DNA from: Chthoniobacterales bacterium
Lineage (GTDB): Bacteria; Verrucomicrobiota; Verrucomicrobiia; Chthoniobacterales; DASVRZ01
Assembly (NCBI GenBank): GCA_039930045.1
Contig: JBDSQB010000005.1
Location: 1 to 64,000, forward strand
DNA: 64,000 nt
Reading direction: 5' to 3'
Position 1 is the stretch's first letter. Each line of letters opens with the position of its first letter. The position numbers and the translations under genes are program-made. This document shows positions 21,163 through 52,437 of the stretch, in pieces. The notes beneath the pieces were generated by a model. That model saw nothing but the letters and a program-made list of their open reading frames with translations, was not told the DNA's origin and searched no databases.

Positions 21163-21487
21163 GGAATTCGTATTTTCACCTCATCGAGAGCGACCCCGGC
21201 AGCGCGAGAATTCGAGAGACGATGAGACGAAAAAACCGGAAAGTTTCGCAACGGAAAGTCTTGGCAGACAGGCGGACTAGGATTTTTCCCTCATCTTCTC
21301 CCGGAAAACTTACGTTCACCGGAACTGGATTTGGCACCCGGTCCTTTTCTCCTGAAATAAATCAGAAAATCAGCGGTTGCCGTGACTTCATCGGGCCAGT
21401 CCCTCAGTCACTCTGGATAAGAGTTGCGTGGACCATAATGCAAAGCTCCGGCGCGTCAAAATTTATTTCCGCGAGCGGACCTTCAAT
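21163..21487. other. Intergenic region without recognised feature
   Basis: This 325-bp gap separates the thrC start from the end of the kinase operon. I see no credible gene, repeat array or hairpin terminator. It probably contains the thrC promoter, but no box is clear enough to place. Confidence 0.5.
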
Positions 21488-43739: not shown

Positions 43740-44173
43740 GCCGCTTTTTTTTCCTGATCCTGACGCTGGCCCTGGCCGCATCGCCATTGCGGGCGGATGA
43801 CGATCAGACGGTGGCCGCCCGAAGCGCCGCCTTCGATCTGGCGGGCGCGTTTTCCGCGAACGACGGTTACAAACTCCGAGATGGCTTTTTCTCGGCCAAG
43901 CTCAAGAAGGGCGAGTCGAAAGTCTTCACCGTCAATCTTTACGCTGGCAACAGCTATTGGTTTTGCACCGCCACCGCGCCCGCAGTGAAAAAGATGGAAG
44001 TCACGCTCTACGACGAGACCGGCAAAGTCCTCCCGATTCAGCCCTTTGTCGATGGAGCACGCGCCGCCGCCGGCATCACCGCGGCCTACAGCGGCACCTA
44101 TTATGTGAAAATTTCCGTGGTCGATGGCGGCTCGGAAAGCTCGACGGCCTGCCTGCTTTACGCTTACAAATAG
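43736..44173 (+). CDS. Exported beta-sandwich-like hypothetical protein
   Basis: A 145-residue protein with a signal peptide (FFFLILTLALAASPLRA). The body has alternating strands and a pre-peptidase (PPC)-like pattern: KKGESKVFTVNLYAGNSYWF, later YSGTYYVKISVVDGG. PPC-type domains are usually appendages of secreted proteins; here it stands alone. It overlaps the upstream gene (ATGA) and precedes an ACT gene by 2 bp. Confidence 0.72.
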   Translation: MSRFFFLILTLALAASPLRADDDQTVAARSAAFDLAGAFSANDGYKLRDGFFSAKLKKGESKVFTVNLYAGNSYWFCTATAPAVKKMEVTLYDETGKVLPIQPFVDGARAAAGITAAYSGTYYVKISVVDGGSESSTACLLYAYK

Positions 44174-44175
44174 AT

Positions 44176-44640
44176 ATGGATAAATCCTACGATACCTTGG
44201 AAAAACTTTCCGCGCCGCGGGTGCAGCATTTCTCCGTATTTGCGGAAAACCGGGCGGGTGCCCTACTCGATCTGGTAAAATTACTCAGCCGCGAACACGT
44301 CGAAATAGTCGCCCTCAGCGTGCAGGATTCGGCGGATTCCTCGATCGTCCGCATGATCGTGAGCGACCCCGATCTGGTGAAGGAACTTTTTGCACAGCAA
44401 GGCATCGCCCACAGCCATACCGAGGTGCTGGTGGTGGAGATGACCGAATGCACCGAGCTGGGAAAATTGCTCGCGACGTTGCTCCAAGCCGAGGTGAATA
44501 TTCATTACAGCTACCCGGTGATGACGCGGCCCAATGAGCGTTCGGCGCTTGTCATTCATCCGGACGATGACGACTGCGCCATCTCAGTTTTGCGCGGTGC
44601 GGGATTCAAAATCCTAACCCAGGGCGACATTTCCCGGTAA
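44176..44640 (+). CDS. ACT-domain protein (tandem ACT)
   Basis: This 154-residue protein has two ACT-like ligand-binding units. The first begins QHFSVFAENRAGALLDLVKLL and the second EVLVVEMTECTELGKLLATL. Stand-alone ACT pairs usually sense amino acids and regulate enzymes or transport. It is cytosolic and starts 2 bp after an exported-protein gene. Its ligand is unknown. Confidence 0.85.
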   Translation: MDKSYDTLEKLSAPRVQHFSVFAENRAGALLDLVKLLSREHVEIVALSVQDSADSSIVRMIVSDPDLVKELFAQQGIAHSHTEVLVVEMTECTELGKLLATLLQAEVNIHYSYPVMTRPNERSALVIHPDDDDCAISVLRGAGFKILTQGDISR

Positions 44641-44768
44641 ATTCCTCCCCCGGAACATGGCTGGTGAATCGAATGGAACTCAAATGCAGCCCGGGCACGG
44701 CGGGTGCTATGTAAAGGCGTGGACAGTTTCCAACCTCTAGAGTCCAAGATTTTACCAACCTCACCATA

Positions 44769-46103
44769 ATGTCCAAAGTCATCCTGCCTCGAACCAACAT
44801 CGTTCGCAGCTTCAACCAGACTCGACCGTCACATCTCCGCGAGCCAGAGGACACGGCTGCCAGGGCTCCGATCCCGATGCCGATGGAGCACTCCGAGCGC
44901 GTGCTGCTGCTGGAGGACGAGGCGCAAACCAACTTCATCCTGCGCGAATATCTCGAGTCGCTGGGTTACCAAGTCGTGGCCGTGGCCAACGGGGTCGATG
45001 GTCTCAAAGAGGTCATGCGAGCCAATTTCGAGCTCGTGATTTGCGACATGATGATGCCCAAGCTGCCCGGCGACATGTTCTATCTCGCCGTGCAAAAGAC
45101 GCGGCCCGAGCTTTGCAACCGCTTCGTTTTCATCACCGGCCACCAGTTGAATCCGACCGTCGATGCCTTCATCGAGAAGACGCATTCGGCCATCTTGGTG
45201 AAACCCTTCCGCCTACAGCAGCTGGAGGCCACCCTCGAAGGTATCCTGTCGCGTTTCCCTAAAAAAGTCCGGCCCATCACCTTGTCGGCCACGCCCGTCA
45301 TCGAGCGGCTTTCAGACACCATGGGCGCTCCTACAGCGGACGAAAAAACGCCGTCGATGGTTTCCAAGGCGCTCAAGATGGTCGGGTTCGGGCGCAATGG
45401 CGAAGCCGTTTCCTCGGTCGAGGAAAAACTCGCCGAACCTGCGAAACCTGCCGCCAGTTCCACCAAAGTCACCCGCCGCATTCCCCATCTCGCCAATGCC
45501 CCGGTGATGCCGTCCAAACCGCAGGCGCCGGCGGCGAGCACGGCCAAAGTTACCCGCCGCATCCCGGCTCCTCCGTCCGAGGGCGTGGAGCCCAAGATCA
45601 CTCGCAGAGTCAGCCAGGCGGAAAACATCATTCGCGTCAAACACCTCACGCCCGCCGACGCTCCGAAGCCGGTCACTACCCGCAAGATCGCCGCGCCTGT
45701 GGCAGCCCCGCAGCCGACTCCGAAGCCCGTCACTACGCGCAAGATCGTCGCGTCCGAGCCGGCTCAGAAGCCGGTCACGACTCGCAAGATCGCTCCTCCA
45801 GCTCCTGTGATTGCACCCAAAGTCACTGCGAAGATTGCGCCAGCCAAAGTTGCGCCAGCCAAGGCACCCGCAGCGAAGACCACGATCAAAGTCGCCGCTA
45901 AAAAAACCGCGCCCGCTCCGAAGGTGACTTCCAAAGTTTCCCCCAAACCTGCCGCAAAGACGGCCCCGAAGACCACCGCGAAGATATCGCCAAAAGTTAC
46001 GGCCAAGGTTTCCACCAAAGTCCCCGCCAAAGCCGCGGCCAAGATGACCTCGCTCATCCCCGCGCCCCTCAAACGCTCCGCCTCCGCGAAAAAGTCCCGC
46101 TAG
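44769..46103 (+). CDS. Response regulator with long Lys/Ala/Pro-rich histone H1-like tail
   Basis: A 444-residue protein. A receiver occupies ~43-160 (VLLLEDEAQT, phospho-Asp in VICDMMMPKLPG, Lys in ILVKPFR). The rest is a low-complexity basic tail (~220-444). The tail repeats a short motif: KVTRRIP twice, KITRRV once and KPVTTRKI three times. It then passes into an Ala/Lys/Pro/Thr region with PKVTAKI and AKVSTKV variants. Such tails resemble histone H1 C-termini and bacterial AlgP-like proteins, which bind DNA non-specifically. The combination suggests a phosphorylation-controlled nucleoid or scaffold protein. There is no kinase alongside. Confidence 0.87.
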   Translation: MSKVILPRTNIVRSFNQTRPSHLREPEDTAARAPIPMPMEHSERVLLLEDEAQTNFILREYLESLGYQVVAVANGVDGLKEVMRANFELVICDMMMPKLPGDMFYLAVQKTRPELCNRFVFITGHQLNPTVDAFIEKTHSAILVKPFRLQQLEATLEGILSRFPKKVRPITLSATPVIERLSDTMGAPTADEKTPSMVSKALKMVGFGRNGEAVSSVEEKLAEPAKPAASSTKVTRRIPHLANAPVMPSKPQAPAASTAKVTRRIPAPPSEGVEPKITRRVSQAENIIRVKHLTPADAPKPVTTRKIAAPVAAPQPTPKPVTTRKIVASEPAQKPVTTRKIAPPAPVIAPKVTAKIAPAKVAPAKAPAAKTTIKVAAKKTAPAPKVTSKVSPKPAAKTAPKTTAKISPKVTAKVSTKVPAKAAAKMTSLIPAPLKRSASAKKSR

Positions 46104-46211
46104 TTAGAGGCGACTTCCATTCCAACCTTCGAGGAGTCGATTTTCCCGTCTGCAATTCGCCTGCGCAGCATCGACAAAAGAGACATCCCCATAAATAGTC
46201 TGCCCGCATCC

Positions 46212-47528
46212 ATGTCCGACGCGAGCCCTCCACCATCCAGCCTTCGCTCCCGCGTGCGAACCTGGACGGTGCTCCTCATGCGCTTCATCTCCGGCGAGAT
46301 CGTCGTGCAGGGGATCGGATTCCTCATCGGCATCTTCCTCTTTCACCATTTCTCGAAAGCAGACGCCGCCTTCTACAATCTGGCCAACAGCATGCTCGGC
46401 ATGATGACCCTCCTCTCCGACAACGGCGTGGGCGCGGGCATCTACGCCATTGGCGGCAAAGTCTGGCGCGACCGCAACCGCTTCGGGGAATTAATCGCCA
46501 CCGCGTTTCACATCCGGCGACGGCTGAACATCCTCACCATGGCCGCCGTCTCGCCGCTCACCTGGTATCTGCTGCGGCACAATGGCTGCCCGCCGTGGCA
46601 AACCTTCGAGATCACCTGCGTCGTCATCATCGGAACGTATTTCCAGATTCTCACCTCGATTCTGGGGGAAATCCCCAAGCTCCACTTGCAGGCGATTCGG
46701 CTGCAGAAACTCAACATCGGCATCGCACTCCTGCGCCTCGGCCTCATCGGAGCCGCGCTGCTCACCCGCCTCTCCACCCTCACCGCGCTCCTCGCCAACC
46801 TCGGCGGTTCCATCGTCCAGGCGCAATACTTGCGGCGTTGGATGCCGCCGCTGGCCGATCCCGATGCGCCGGTGAATGTGGAGGATAAAAAAGTCCTCAT
46901 CAGCCTCATCAAACGCCAGCTTCCCAGCTCGATCTACTACTGCATTTACGGCCAGATCACCATCTTCCTCATCTCGCTCACCGGCAATGTTAGCAACCTC
47001 GCCGATGTCGCCGCGCTGTCCGCCCTGGCCCGCGTTTTTGCCGTCATCGGCTCCGTCATGAGCACCATCATTTACCCGCGCTTCGCCCACATCCAGGAGC
47101 CGTATTTGCTCTGGCGGCGCTACTTGCAAATCATCGGGCTATTCCTCCTCATGGGCGCTGTCATGTGCGGCTTAACCTGGCTTTTCCCGAGGGAACTCCT
47201 CTGGATATTAGGAAACAAATACCAGCATCTGCAAAACGAAGTTCTCCTGATGGTCGCCGGTTCCGTGTTAGGAGTCATCGGAGGAAACCTCTGGAGCCTG
47301 AACTCCGCCCGAGGCTGGATCGTGGCTCCGTGGCTCTACATTCCGGCCTCCATCCTCACCCAAGCCTTGCTCATCTGGCTGCTGCCCGTTTCCACCGTCG
47401 GAGGCGTGCTCTGGATGGGATTACTCGGAAACATCCCCGGCATTGCCATCAATTTCGCCCTGGCCCACCGCCGCGTCGGTGAAATGAAAAATGCCGCCGC
47501 GCATCCTCTTCCTAACATCGCGATCTAA
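46212..47528 (+). CDS. Polysaccharide biosynthesis flippase (Wzx-like)
   Basis: This 438-residue integral membrane protein has about 12 hydrophobic segments in the MOP/oligosaccharide flippase pattern (for example LISLTGNVSNLADVAALSAL, IGLFLLMGAVMCGLTWLFP). It would move lipid-linked sugar units across the inner membrane. The glycosyltransferase gene follows 29 bp later, so they form a small surface-polysaccharide module. The start ATG 46212 follows a gap of ~108 bp. Confidence 0.82.
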   Translation: MSDASPPPSSLRSRVRTWTVLLMRFISGEIVVQGIGFLIGIFLFHHFSKADAAFYNLANSMLGMMTLLSDNGVGAGIYAIGGKVWRDRNRFGELIATAFHIRRRLNILTMAAVSPLTWYLLRHNGCPPWQTFEITCVVIIGTYFQILTSILGEIPKLHLQAIRLQKLNIGIALLRLGLIGAALLTRLSTLTALLANLGGSIVQAQYLRRWMPPLADPDAPVNVEDKKVLISLIKRQLPSSIYYCIYGQITIFLISLTGNVSNLADVAALSALARVFAVIGSVMSTIIYPRFAHIQEPYLLWRRYLQIIGLFLLMGAVMCGLTWLFPRELLWILGNKYQHLQNEVLLMVAGSVLGVIGGNLWSLNSARGWIVAPWLYIPASILTQALLIWLLPVSTVGGVLWMGLLGNIPGIAINFALAHRRVGEMKNAAAHPLPNIAI

Positions 47529-47557
47529 CTCGTTCCTAACTTCCTGCTAACCTTCCA

Positions 47558-48766
47558 ATGAGAATCATCGTCTGGGGAATCAACTACGCACCTGAAGTCA
47601 CCGGCATCGCGCCCTGCAACGTCGCGCTCTGCGAGTTTCTCCACGCGCGCGGACACGACGTCGAGATGGTCACCAGTTTCGCCTACTACCCGCAATGGGA
47701 AAAACGCCCCGAGGATCGCGGATGCCTCTATCGCGCCGATTGGCTTAATGGAGTGCGCGTCCACCGCTGCTGGCACTACGTCCCGCGCAAAGTCTCCGCC
47801 GCCAAACGCATCCTGCACGAGGGCACCTTCGTCGCCACCTCCTTCCTGCGCGCCCTGCTCCTGCGGAAATCCGATGTCGTTGTCGTCGTCTCGCCGCCAC
47901 TCTTGTTAGGAGCCGCCGCGTGGTTGCTAACCTCGCTGCGCGGCAATCGCTACCACTTCCACGTGCAGGACTTGCAGCCCGACGCCGCCGTCGGCCTGAA
48001 CATGCTCCGGCCCGGACTCTTCACCCAGTTGCTCTACAAGCTGGAAGCTCTCGCCTACCGGCACGCCAGCAAAGTCAGCGGCATCGGCCAGGGTATGATT
48101 GACGCGTTTGTTAGAAAAGGAGTGCCGCCGGAAAAGATCGCCCTGCTTCCCAACGGCTTCGACGTGAGTGGGGCCGCCCGCCTGTCGTCCGTCGATTTCC
48201 GCGCCCGATACGGATTCGACTCCGATGCATTTCTAGCCATCTACTCCGGCAACCTCGGCGTCAAGCAAGGCCTAGAAATCCTCCCCGCCGCCGCTGTGCT
48301 TCTAACCAATCCTAACATCCAGATCGTCATCTGCGGCGACGGCGCGCGCCGGGCGTTATTGGAAGAAGAAATCGCCCGCTTGCGGCTGACTAACATCCGA
48401 CTCCTCCCCCTGCTCGACGACGACACCTACCGCGCCATGCTCCAGACCGCCGGTGCCTGCCTCATTACGCAACAAGCGGGCTCCGGCAACGCCTTTCTGC
48501 CCAGCAAACTCCTGCCCACGCTCGCCTACCGCCGGGCCGTCATCAGCGTCGCCGACAGCGACAGCGCCCTCGCCACCGCCGTCGCCGAGGGGCAGTTTGG
48601 AACGAACATCGCGCCCGGCAACGCCGCCGCCCTCGCGCAAGTCCTCGAAGACTTCGCCGCCAATCCATTGCAACTCGAAACCTACCAGCGCAACGGCCAC
48701 ACCTACGTCACCCGCTTCGATCACGCCAAAGTGTTAGCCGACTTCGAGCGCACCCTGATCGACTAA
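47558..48766 (+). CDS. Family 4 glycosyltransferase (WcaI-like)
   Basis: This 402-residue GT-B glycosyltransferase has an N-terminal Rossmann half starting IIVWGINYAPEVTGIAPCN. The linker helix region holds ALLPNGFDVS. The C-terminal nucleotide-sugar site has AIYSGNLGVKQGLE, VICGDGARRALL and the acceptor/donor loop FLPSKLLPTLAYRRAVIS. WcaI of colanic acid synthesis is the closest recalled type. It probably extends an exopolysaccharide repeat handled by the neighbouring flippase. Confidence 0.88.
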   Translation: MRIIVWGINYAPEVTGIAPCNVALCEFLHARGHDVEMVTSFAYYPQWEKRPEDRGCLYRADWLNGVRVHRCWHYVPRKVSAAKRILHEGTFVATSFLRALLLRKSDVVVVVSPPLLLGAAAWLLTSLRGNRYHFHVQDLQPDAAVGLNMLRPGLFTQLLYKLEALAYRHASKVSGIGQGMIDAFVRKGVPPEKIALLPNGFDVSGAARLSSVDFRARYGFDSDAFLAIYSGNLGVKQGLEILPAAAVLLTNPNIQIVICGDGARRALLEEEIARLRLTNIRLLPLLDDDTYRAMLQTAGACLITQQAGSGNAFLPSKLLPTLAYRRAVISVADSDSALATAVAEGQFGTNIAPGNAAALAQVLEDFAANPLQLETYQRNGHTYVTRFDHAKVLADFERTLID

Positions 48767-48840
48767 CTCCGCAACGGGGAAGAGAATGAACCGCCAAGAC
48801 ACCAAGGAAGAAAAGAATGCCTTCTGAGGAAAGTGCACCT

Positions 48841-48981
48841 CGTTCCCAAACTCCAGTTTGGGAACGCACTTGCTCAGGAAACTATGTTTCCGTGAAGGCT
48901 CAAGATGCTGACACTAAACCTTCACCCGAACGAAACGGAGTTTCGCGGACACTGGCATTCCCAAACAGGAGTTTGGGAACG
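48841..48981. repeat. REP hairpin cluster (four palindromes)
   Basis: Four short palindromes lie in 141 bp. Two are related: CGTTCCCAAACT-CC-AGTTTGGGAACG at 48841-48866, with perfect 12-bp arms, and CATTCCCAAAC-AGGA-GTTTGGGAACG at 48956-48981. Two smaller ones lie between: GGAAAC-TAT-GTTTCC (48877-48891) and CGAAAC-GGA-GTTTCG (48931-48945). Such TTCCCAAACTC-type palindromes are typical REP elements dispersed in many bacterial genomes. The cluster directly abuts the truncated end of the gene cassettes. Confidence 0.8.
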
Positions 48982-49043
48982 AGGGGAAACTAATTACACG
49001 AAAGCTACGCATCGGAGCGGGGCGCGGTTCGCTGCATCGCTGG

Positions 49044-49448
49044 TTAGATGCGGCGCACCGCAAGCACTCGCAACCAGAAACTGAAGGTGAACACTAGCGC
49101 GCCGCAAACTGCTGGAAGGGCAAGCCACAAAAGTACGCCTTCCCAAATCTCGGTTCGTTCGTATGGGCGCAACCAGAAGTCGAAACCGAGCAAGATGAAG
49201 ACTGGAAAAGCGAACACCAGCAGTGATCGTCCCAAGCAGGCGAAATAGTGCAGCCAAGCGCGTGAGACCGGCAGCGCCGAGAGCAGTGACAATACACCGA
49301 ACAGGATCACCGTGTATCCTAGCCACAACCAGAGCGCGTTGTCAGCGAACCAGCTCTCCGGCAGTCTCGTGATGAAGAACCCGAGAACGATTGCTCCAGC
49401 TGCAAAGAGGCTGCTGTGTAGGAAATCCGATTTGCCGAAGCTGGTCAT
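49044..49448 (-). CDS. Cassette-borne membrane protein (134 residues)
   Basis: The protein has four hydrophobic segments (~12-30, ~38-58, ~68-92, ~105-127). No family was recognised. It starts with ATG overlapping the stop of its upstream partner (ATGA), so both share one cassette. Its stop codon TAA is part of the ATCTAAC box of a truncated attC, as is usual for cassette genes. Low GC relative to the flanks supports recent acquisition. Confidence 0.75.
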   Translation of the reverse strand: MTSFGKSDFLHSSLFAAGAIVLGFFITRLPESWFADNALWLWLGYTVILFGVLSLLSALPVSRAWLHYFACLGRSLLVFAFPVFILLGFDFWLRPYERTEIWEGVLLWLALPAVCGALVFTFSFWLRVLAVRRI

Positions 49449-49783
49449 GTTGAGCTGGTTGGAAGCTTAAGCACACGACGAACAAGCATAAAGAAGGCGA
49501 TGCCAGACAGAATACGACTCACGACTGAGAGAAGGGGTTGCAGCACGATGATAGCGCGATAGAGCTCCCCGGGCTGTAACTTAGTCGCTAAGACGTGCGG
49601 AATGAATAGCAAGGCAAGCACCGTGCCAAGAACTGAAAGACCAGCGGCGACCGCGAACATGTAGAAGACGAGTCTGAACGAAGAACGACGGGCCGCAACG
49701 AGAGATACAATGCAGATAGCAATACGGAATCCAAGATCGGCGCAAGTCACGGCCCAGTAAAAAATTTGGTCTGAAAGGTTCAT
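49445..49783 (-). CDS. Cassette-borne membrane protein (112 residues)
   Basis: The protein has about three hydrophobic helices (~10-30, ~38-65, ~80-100) and no recognised family. It begins ~18 bp after the GTTAGGC end of the attC site, in the normal position for a cassette gene. It ends in an ATGA overlap with the next membrane-protein gene. Two-gene cassettes are less usual than single-gene ones and suggest that the two proteins act together. Confidence 0.75.
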   Translation of the reverse strand: MNLSDQIFYWAVTCADLGFRIAICIVSLVAARRSSFRLVFYMFAVAAGLSVLGTVLALLFIPHVLATKLQPGELYRAIIVLQPLLSVVSRILSGIAFFMLVRRVLKLPTSST

Positions 49784-49801
49784 GCAGTGAATACGCTAGT
49801 C

Positions 49802-49925
49802 GCCTAACGAGAACAAGATGAGCGACGGCGGACGAGGGCGCGTCTCGCTCGGAGTGTTCGTGTGGAAGTCATCTCAAAAGTGGAGCGCGCAGCGGTCCGC
49901 CGTTCGCTCCATCGCATGGTTAGAT
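49802..49925 (-). other. attC recombination site (complete)
   Basis: On the minus strand the 124-bp site starts with R'' ATCTAAC (49925-49919) and ends with R' GTTAGGC (49808-49802), both matching the RYYYAAC and GTTRRRY consensus. Inside, the arm GATGGAGCGAACGGCGGAC (49913-49895) pairs with GTCCGCCGTCGCTCATC (49833-49817). The pairing is complete except for two extra bases, one G and one A, on the first strand. These are the extrahelical bases that define attC polarity. Unpaired spacers of 5 and 8 nt separate the boxes from the arms. Confidence 0.85.
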
Positions 49926-50303
49926 GCTTTCGCGTTGCAACTCATCACGTAATCCCTTCGTGAAGTTAGGATGAGCTTCGCCCCAAGCCAATGCACAATC
50001 CCAAGCCTCGCGTAACCGGTCGTCGCCTTCCCAATGTGCAAAGAATCGGCGCAGCTTCGGCTGCTCAAGAACATGCTCCAAAAATCCTGTCTCGATAGCA
50101 CGCTGCACAGACTCATCGCTGGCCAAGAAAAGTTGCGTCACCGCGGCAGCAAGCTCAGTAAGCATGTCGTCCGCGTCGCTTCGCTTCGCAATGTCGTCGA
50201 AACACACCTCAAGTTCTCCGGCAGCCTCGTAACGGGTCGGTGTGTCGCCATCTTGCGGGTCGTCGCGAATGCAACGCAGTAGGTATTCGAGGTGGTCGTG
50301 CAT
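49920..50303 (-). CDS. Cassette-borne hypothetical cytosolic protein (127 residues)
   Basis: A soluble acidic helical protein (MHDHLEYLLRCIRDD..., ending LRDELQRESI). No family was recognised with confidence. Its ATG overlaps the GTTAGAT boundary of the cassette and its TAA stop overlaps the ATCTAAC box of the attC, so the gene fills the cassette completely. It is probably a mobile accessory gene. Immunity or stress functions are common for such cassettes, but nothing in the sequence proves one. Confidence 0.78.
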   Translation of the reverse strand: MHDHLEYLLRCIRDDPQDGDTPTRYEAAGELEVCFDDIAKRSDADDMLTELAAAVTQLFLASDESVQRAIETGFLEHVLEQPKLRRFFAHWEGDDRLREAWDCALAWGEAHPNFTKGLRDELQRESI

Positions 50304-50325
50304 CTAACATCTTATAGACGAAAGC

Positions 50326-51303
50326 CTACGCCGTCCACACCTGCACGGGGCTGGGGGTGCTGCTGCCGGTGGCGTTTCTGGCTTGGAGCCAGAGTTGATA
50401 GGTCTGGCCGGGTTGGAAGGTGATTGTCGCGGGAATGGTCACACTCGTCTCTTCGCGGGTGCCGAGGGCGATCAATTCATTGGCTCCGCCTTCGCCGAGA
50501 CGCCAGGCTTCGAGCCGGGTGGCACTCTCGGGCAGGGCACCGGTGGAGAGGGTGCGGGCAGTGGGGTTCCAGACGGTCGTGGCCGGGGCGGCAGGAACGG
50601 GTTGCACGGGGGAACGCAGCACGTTGATGTCGAATAAAGTATCCACTTGAGCGGGGTCGCCCTGGAAGACGGACATGCCGAGGCCGACCATGCCGTAGAG
50701 GGCGGCAGCGGCGGCGACGCGGAGGGGTTCCATGGCGTTTTGCGCGTTGTCGGCGGCGGTCATTTTCGTGGTCTGCGAGGTGCGCAGGGCGCGGGCGGAG
50801 TCGGACCACGAGGTAACGGTGACGCCGAGGGCGACGAGCGCGGGCTTGGCGGTTTGCTGGGAAAGGCGGACGCCGAAATCGCGCAGGGCGTCGAGGCGAT
50901 CCTCGGTGGTGCCAATCGTGAGCGTGTCGCGACCGTGCGGCAGGAGTTCTTTGTAAGTAGGGCCATTGTAGGCGACTGCGCCGCGAATGGTGGTGTCCCA
51001 AGTTTCCAGCGGGCTATTCGTGTCGGCATCGGGCTTGCGGGTGAGGCTGTCGAGGCGATCGGTAAAGGCGAAGGTCGCGCCGACTTGGGCGGCAAACGTA
51101 TTCACTGCCAGGGTCTCGCCTGCGCTCCAACTGGTGGCCACGGCAGCGATGGCGGCCTGGGCCGGGGCGAGTGCGGGGTGGAGCAGGGCAGCGGCGGTGA
51201 TGCGAGGCAGGGTGGAATCGATCAGTTCGCTCATGAGCGACAGGCTATTGACGGTGGCGGAGTCGAATTGGTTTTCGGCGTATTTCGATGGTGATGTGGA
51301 CAT
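50326..51303 (-). CDS. Hypothetical protein with C-terminal Fn3-like domain
   Basis: This 325-residue protein has a helical N-terminal two thirds (~1-220, Ala-rich, no signal peptide). A short linker rich in Pro/Val follows, then a C-terminal beta-sandwich (~240-325) with the Fn3-like ending QTYQLWLQARNATGSS. No family was recognised. The cassette segment is inserted 18 bp after its stop, and array C lies just upstream. Its codon use matches the main genome. Confidence 0.7.
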   Translation of the reverse strand: MSTSPSKYAENQFDSATVNSLSLMSELIDSTLPRITAAALLHPALAPAQAAIAAVATSWSAGETLAVNTFAAQVGATFAFTDRLDSLTRKPDADTNSPLETWDTTIRGAVAYNGPTYKELLPHGRDTLTIGTTEDRLDALRDFGVRLSQQTAKPALVALGVTVTSWSDSARALRTSQTTKMTAADNAQNAMEPLRVAAAAALYGMVGLGMSVFQGDPAQVDTLFDINVLRSPVQPVPAAPATTVWNPTARTLSTGALPESATRLEAWRLGEGGANELIALGTREETSVTIPATITFQPGQTYQLWLQARNATGSSTPSPVQVWTA

Positions 51304-51358
51304 GGTATTTAACGTGTGTGGTTGGACTTGCGTGGACTGAGCAGAATGAAACTCAACT

Positions 51359-51610
51359 GCGGGAGGCAGGGCGCGGTGGTCGACAGGGAGGAAGTGGCCC
51401 GCCGGACATCCGGCATGGCAGTCGGCAGAGAGGAAGAGGGTTGCCGGACGTCCCGCATCGCAGTGGGAAGAGAGGAACAGTGCTGCCGGACATCCGGCAT
51501 CGCCATCACTAGAGAGGAATCGGCCCGCCGGACATCCGGGAGTGCTATCGGCAGAGAGGAATTGGGCTGCGGGACATCCGGCAGCGTTATCGGCAGGGAG
51601 TCAAGGCGAT
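51359..51610. repeat. Degenerate 42-bp (2 x 21) tandem array C, 6 units without indels
   Basis: Six 42-bp units start at 51359, 51401, 51443, 51485, 51527 and 51569, again without insertion or deletion. Each has a first half near GCCGGACATCCGGCatggcag, which contains the palindrome GCCGGA-CA-TCCGGC. The second half is near tcggcAGAGAGGAAgaggg. The first and last units are most diverged. The array lies 55 bp upstream of the Fn3-like gene. Open frames through it show 14-residue repeats, but none has a plausible start with family support. From 51611 to 51861 I see nothing further. Confidence 0.88.
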
Positions 51611-51861
51611 ACTGGATCTTCCTGCTCACCTCCGGCAGCTCCAGTGAGCGATAATCGCCACATTTTCCCCGCAAAACCCGTTGCCGACCCTGCCACAGAC
51701 CCATTGCCAGTGCAATTGAGTGCCGCTTTCCCTCTGCCGTTGCCGTGCTGGGTGCCATTGAACCGTAATACAAGCGGGAACAAAGAACCCCGTCCAGTTA
51801 TTCTGGCGATTTATTTTCGTCCATCACTTTACGCGCGATGAGCGGTCGTAGAGGGTTGGCC

Positions 51862-52437
51862 TCATTTAGTCTTGGCGGCTTTCCAAGCTTTCTCAAATCG
51901 TTTGGCTCCATATAGCCGCTTTCGAATCTCGATCGCTTGCGCGACGACCTCGCCGGAAGCGCCGCCGCCTTCATATTGATCGTTGTATTCTACGTTCTGT
52001 TTCATCCAACGGATGGTTTTGTCCCACTCGTCCATGTATCCAAAAACGGTGATGATCAGGCTATCTCGACCAATGCCTCTCTTCTTGTCCTCGGCCAAAA
52101 GCCAGTCGAGCTGGGACTTGTCGCCAAAAACATATTTGTAGTGGGCGACGGCCAAAAGCGGAACGTATCCCAAGGTTTTTTCGTAGAGATCGAGCGACTG
52201 CTTCAACTTCGGATCGTGACGCACCGCCGCTTCATTGATGATGTCGAACATCTGCAACTCGATTTCATGGCGCTTACTGTAGAGCTGATTGAGTCGCAAC
52301 GGATCGTAGTCAGGGAACGGTGTCGCACCCGTTACAGGCTGAGCAGTGCCAAATAAATCACGAGGGTAATCGCGTTGTTGCGCAGAGACACTCGCGGCAA
52401 AGGCCAGCAGGAAAAATGCGATGAATGATGTGCGCAT
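51862..52437 (-). CDS. Exported hypothetical protein
   Basis: A 191-residue protein with a clean signal peptide (FIAFFLLAFAASVSAQ) and a helical body rich in aromatic residues and Lys. The helices may form TPR-like hairpins (LDLYEKTLGYVPLLAVAHY, then DEWDKTIRWMKQNVEY). It starts 4 bp after the RodZ-like gene. No firm family. Confidence 0.72.
   Translation of the reverse strand: MRTSFIAFFLLAFAASVSAQQRDYPRDLFGTAQPVTGATPFPDYDPLRLNQLYSKRHEIELQMFDIINEAAVRHDPKLKQSLDLYEKTLGYVPLLAVAHYKYVFGDKSQLDWLLAEDKKRGIGRDSLIITVFGYMDEWDKTIRWMKQNVEYNDQYEGGGASGEVVAQAIEIRKRLYGAKRFEKAWKAAKTK

Follow-up and report, generated by a model that had tools for sequence, protein, structure and literature searches.

Cassettes at an attI-core-like junction without an adjoining integrase in a Chthoniobacterales genome that encodes IntI

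Introduction

CALINs are common in bacterial genomes, and their origin is usually obscure. Off-target insertion of cassettes by the integrase IntI elsewhere in the genome is one proposed origin (PMC8618304), and off-target activity of IntI is known (PMC10127599). As described in the citing papers PMC12901181 and PMC11641012, Loot et al. (2024, Nat Microbiol, doi 10.1038/s41564-023-01548-y) reported insertions at attG sites; according to PMC12901181, these sites are strongly divergent from classical att sites. Integrons have already been listed for Verrucomicrobiota (PMC8618304).

We analyzed a 64,000-nucleotide stretch (hereafter the window) of a Chthoniobacterales bacterium, located on contig C5 of a 3.52-Mb genome that is 99.9% complete and assembled in 23 contigs. 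A sequence-only reading had described positions 49043-50308 as orphan cassettes in an unusual host. We show here that the cassettes are bounded on one side by a junction that copies the core of the host attI, and we weigh how they came to the site.

Results

A genuine attC site separates two cassettes

The site at 49802..49925, with the minus strand as the functional strand, is a genuine attC. It is 124 bp long and contains two extrahelical bases. On the minus strand, the R'' box is ATCTAAC (49919-49925) and the R' box is GTTAGGC (49802-49808); the two are of the RYYYAAC/GTTRRRY type and pair with each other. The L'' and L' arms, AT(G)GAGCGA(A)CGGCGGAC and GTCCGCCGTCGCTCAT, also pair, with both unpaired bases in the L'' arm. 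We built a covariance model from 17 attCs found elsewhere in this genome, leaving out that of the window; it scored this site at 43.0 bits (E=6.7e-9), the next best in the window being 17.0 bits. The earlier description of consensus R boxes, paired L arms and two extrahelical bases was upheld. Three of 200 shuffled sequences folded as well as the attC stem. A scan of the window for paired R boxes with a stem returned this attC and one weaker site elsewhere, against a background of 0.6 sites per strand in shuffled windows. CTAAC/GTTAG is clustered at 44000-52000 (21 copies in 8 kb), and four copies lie within 60 bp (47500-47560) between two glycan-type genes.

The window attC is clearly divergent from the attCs of the host array, which are mostly 102-104 bp long and differ from it also in the centre. 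It shares 91% identity with attCs of genome G434, the Spartobacteria MAG palsa_1379 (taken to be also G027, since the coordinates match). Because of this identity to attCs of another Spartobacterium, the cassette carrying it appears to have been acquired; its attC type suggests a palsa_1379-type lineage as the source.

Cassettes, genes and flanks

We read 49043-50308 on both strands; all three cassette genes are on the minus strand, which the earlier reading had not noticed. Cassette A (49808..50307, minus strand) consists of gene 3 and the complete attC and is bounded by G|TT crossover points. Cassette B (49014..49807, minus strand) contains genes 2 and 1, the ORFs of which overlap, followed by a truncated attC. 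As noted before, starts and stops are fused to the boundaries: the ATG of gene 3 to GTTAGATG at 50308-50301, the stop of gene 3 to ATCTAAC at 49925-49919 and that of gene 1 to ATCTAAC at 49049-49043. The nature of the two outer boundaries had gone unrecognized in the earlier reading: that at 50308 is an attI-like core, and that at 49043 belongs to a truncated attC (49014..49049, minus strand), since only R'' (ATCTAAC), a spacer and the L'' arm (CAGCGATGCAGCGAACCGCG) remain and the 3' half is missing. This remnant was not matched by the covariance model; it was recognized by its identity to host attCs in their 5' half (CCA-GCGATGCAGCGAAC).

The reported difference in composition also stood. The GC content of the locus is 55.0% versus 59.5%, within the lowest 2.2% of the window; the shift is mild. 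A short direct repeat, ACGAAAGC(C)TACGC, flanks the locus: one copy is at 48998..49010, and the other, at 50318..50331, overlaps both the attI-like core and the end of an fn3-like gene (50326-51303) that flanks the attI-like junction. The locus lies between this gene and a glycosyltransferase gene.

REP-like inverted repeats at 48830-48990 (GTTCCCAAACTCC..GTTTGGGAAC) adjoin the truncated cassette end, and similar ones occur at the right ends of the cassette loci on C23 and at C3:169066. The end of the array on C21 (L016:13200-14110) and that of the C3:169066 locus (L090:1900-2700) finish in the same sequence, GTGGCCTAACCCCTATGAAARGTGTCAAGTTAAGGTT, which is attC-like without a normal stem; a similar end is found at L214 in another genome. 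Elsewhere in the window, a SAM riboswitch is located at 21288-21423 on the minus strand (Rfam RF00162, 77.3 bits).

Genes 1 (49044..49448, minus strand, 134 aa, with its stop inside R'') and 2 (49445..49783, minus strand, 112 aa) encode hydrophobic products that look like small membrane proteins according to prediction. Neither matched a Pfam, PADLOC or PHROG family, and their NCBIfam matches were insignificant. Gene 3 (49920..50303, minus strand) encodes a 127-aa protein predicted to be all-alpha, with a weak, sub-threshold match to DUF7674. Its structure model is all-helical but of low confidence (pLDDT 70), and no significant match to it was found in the PDB. Among 388 genomes of the phylum, the host included, there was no homologue besides gene 3 itself, and viral contigs gave no match. 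In a plasmid collection, we found a sole distant homologue (30% identity over 113 aa, E=6e-4) from Eleftheria terrae, encoded directly downstream of an RHS-repeat gene. This weak resemblance to the neighbour of an Rhs-repeat gene is the only functional lead in the locus; as the best available guess, gene 3 may tentatively be regarded as a candidate orphan immunity protein. The idea that these might be defence genes found no direct support, as no PADLOC defence model matched genes 1-3.

The host possesses an intact integron integrase and a cassette array

By a profile search of the whole genome, we identified IntI on contig C10 (C10:677-1612; TIGR02249, 450.7 bits against a cut-off of 265), in an intact frame of 328 aa (C10:629-1615). 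An attI and a divergently oriented attC array adjoin it. The covariance model located attCs at 19 places (8 on C7, 5 on C21, 3 on C13, and 1 each on C10, C9 and in the window), among which one sequence present at both the C7 and C21 ends may be double-counted. Because its arms lie at four contig ends (C10, C7, C21 and C13), the host array was broken by assembly. C13 (L017:1-1461) carries a multi-cassette array with an attI-core-like first junction and no adjoining integrase; it may be a second, separate large array of this host that lacks intI.

The host IntI resembles those encoded in an uncultured Spartobacteria genome (66% identity), a Chthoniobacter MAG (65%) and a Udaeobacter MAG (63%), which marks the host as one of Chthoniobacterales type. 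Of 289 genomes sampled from the phylum, 81 have an IntI above the cut-off, so the host is not an unusual one. Of the view that the locus is a CALIN-type orphan, one part was retained, in that no integrase lies beside it; the absence of an integrase does not hold for the genome as a whole, which has IntI, attI and at least 17 attCs besides that of the window.

The outer junction imitates the core of the host attI

The native attI, which adjoins IntI on C10, reads TTTACGCCTACAATATG|TTAGGC on the functional strand. The outer junction of the window locus, TTTCGTCTATAAGATG|TTAGATG, has the same geometry. Judged by sequence, the attI-core-like junction CTTTCGTCTATAAGATG|TTAG (50304..50324, minus strand), with the G|TT crossover between 50308 and 50307, imitates the core of the host attI: an L box CGYCTA, six bases and then G|TT are all present (CGTCTATAAGATG|TTAG). 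The junctions at C9 (TTTCGCCTACAATATG|TTAGGC) and at the C13 array (CCGTCTAATACTCG|TTAGGC) are similar. The window site lacks the upstream arm that the native attI has: alignment there was no better than with shuffles, and a full attI copy is unsupported. With attI, the window site and the host's other dispersed sites have no more than about 16-18 bp in common. No intI gene lies next to the window junction, and no integrase model, IntI fragments included, matched contig C5.

The same core is found elsewhere in the host. YCTAN6GTTAG starts every attC-bearing locus with a readable first junction (the C10 attI, the window on C5, C9 and C13). In the 3.52 Mb it matched 14 times, compared to 73 times for the reversed control. 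The longer motif TTTNCGYCTAYAAN3GTTRG matched on C10, C5, C9 and C23 and at two loci on C3, each time with a small cassette-like ORF behind it. Its further places, C23:62086, C3:169066 and C3:60888, are each followed by a small cassette-like ORF on the same strand; no attC was detectable at these three with the covariance model. Besides the window, there are four off-array host loci with the same core. By rough scaling from 1.19 Mb of a relative, chance alone would give about 0.5 copies of TTTCGYCTAN6GTT in the host genome.

The motif is a feature of attI in other Chthoniobacterales

The motif was defined from the host loci first, so that the test in other genomes was independent of that choice. 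We searched 147 genomes of the order for TTTCGYCTAN6GTTAG, a pattern including nothing further upstream, and found 44 matches in 22 genomes, the reversed pattern giving 15. Family f8 accounted for 38 of the matches and for 2 of the reversed ones; most of the 38 have a fuller attI. At the sites in other genomes, a TAGRC box was found no more than 42 nt upstream in 27 of 32 (1.3% of control stretches), and an ORF of at least 70 aa started within 45 nt in 25 of 32 (34% of controls). About 20 of the motif loci contained an attC recognized by the covariance model.

Of the 32 distinct sites, 4 have IntI or a remnant of it as their immediate neighbour; the motif is therefore considered a feature of attI. 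Because several loci are near contig ends, the number of integrase-free sites is approximate. The integrase is divergent at L206, in the same orientation at L199 and L194, and degraded at L215. At L194 and L199, the integrase in cassette orientation (an inverted arrangement) stands beside a conserved attI. Next to IntI in six related genomes with readable neighbourhoods, the core consists of YCNA, six bases and G|TTAG, and 2 of the 6 fit YCTAN6GTTAG exactly. Aligned to the complete upstream element of a relative, the host attI scored 47.4 (best of 500 shuffles, 32.0), which identifies that element as attI. The conserved YCTAYAA resembles a -10 box and may be explained by a promoter alone, but this would leave the attI homology and the TAGRC box unexplained.

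Four copies of the hairpin were present in 1.19 Mb of one relative, each followed by G|TTAG and none of them empty; on this ground, and because near-matches in the host were no commoner than those of the reversed control, an ordinary repeat or terminator was rejected for the flanking hairpin. A genome of f8 may have as many as six places at which cassettes follow a nearly full attI copy, of up to about 50 bp.

Discussion

The locus probably arose by off-array insertion, in which the resident IntI, acting in trans, placed cassettes at an attI-like chromosomal site. In favour of this interpretation are the genuine attC, the intact IntI with its array, the attI-like core at the junction and the sister loci with the same core. 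IntI (C10:629-1615) would recombine folded bottom-strand attCs with a double-stranded chromosomal site located just after the stop codon of the fn3-like gene, where the sequence imitates the host attI core. Two cassettes, one with gene 3 and one with genes 2 and 1, would have been inserted in series, and the terminal attC would later have lost its 3' half. That IntI acted in trans, that the steps followed this order and that the complete attC arrived with its cassette from another Chthoniobacterales lineage are inferences.

The core need not have preceded the insert. Several such sites are present in the host and all are occupied, versus about 0.5 by chance; the half site could therefore have travelled with the insert. 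If an attI-like site pre-existed, an empty site ending GCTTTCGTCTATAAGATG|TT would be expected; otherwise, dispersal of the half site would be favoured. The host is the only member of its family in the sample, and the nearest homologue of the fn3-like flank is at the level of the order and not syntenic. The truncated right end together with the flanking direct repeat is unexplained by a simple single insertion.

A related but wider proposal is that integrons in Chthoniobacterales are distributed, with one IntI serving several intI-less attI platforms, the window being a satellite reduced to the core. We regard this as possible, though somewhat doubtful. If true, each platform, with a full or a core attI, has its own cassettes.

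It is unlikely that the core or the full attI hairpin is itself mobile, dispersing with cassettes and continuing to catch more while IntI serves in trans. The nearly full attI copies in f8, the occupancy of all four hairpin copies in the relative and the occurrence of the motif with intI in both orientations would suit such a platform; however, the short stretch that the window and the dispersed host sites share with attI does not, and no carrier or mechanism moving attI was seen.

Equally, there is little to commend the view that the window locus is what is left of a complete integron, with intI lost in place and attI and two cassettes remaining. In-place loss of intI does exist as a route in the order, since at the sister locus L215 a degraded IntI lies immediately upstream of the attI-like site, and the attC at the right end of the window locus has decayed too. 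At the window site, however, only 1-2 nt separate the end of the intact fn3-like gene from the motif, so that there is no room for a decayed intI; contig C5 carries no IntI fragment, and the site lacks the upstream half that the native attI has. A chance build-up of R-box-like motifs within ordinary genes can be set aside, because, even with GTTAG/CTAAC as the most over-represented 5-mer in sampled host DNA (1.8-fold), it accounts neither for the covariance score of the attC nor for its identity to attCs of another genome.

Off-array insertion by the resident IntI thus being the preferred reading, the locus can be compared with three described systems. Like CALINs (PMC8618304), it comprises attC-bounded cassettes without a nearby integrase. 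It differs in having one complete and one truncated attC, whereas at least two attCs are the criterion for a CALIN, and in the presence of an intact IntI in trans and an attI-core-like junction. Like the attG insertions of Loot et al., as the citing papers describe them, it would represent cassettes integrated by IntI at a non-integron chromosomal site; in contrast to attG, the window site copies the attI core. Like genomes with sedentary chromosomal integrons, the host carries IntI together with attI, and similar attCs form an array spread over C10, C7, C21 and C13, but the window locus lies off the array and its attC is of another subtype (124 bp versus mostly 102-104 bp). What is unusual is that the core of attI is copied at secondary sites, and that attI copies which are nearly full but lack intI are found widely in the order. 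This pattern suggests that an attI need not stay coupled to an intI. With an integrase, an attI and satellite loci with attI-core junctions coexisting in one genome, and dozens of mostly intI-less attI copies with cassettes in its relatives, the off-target origin of CALINs becomes testable.
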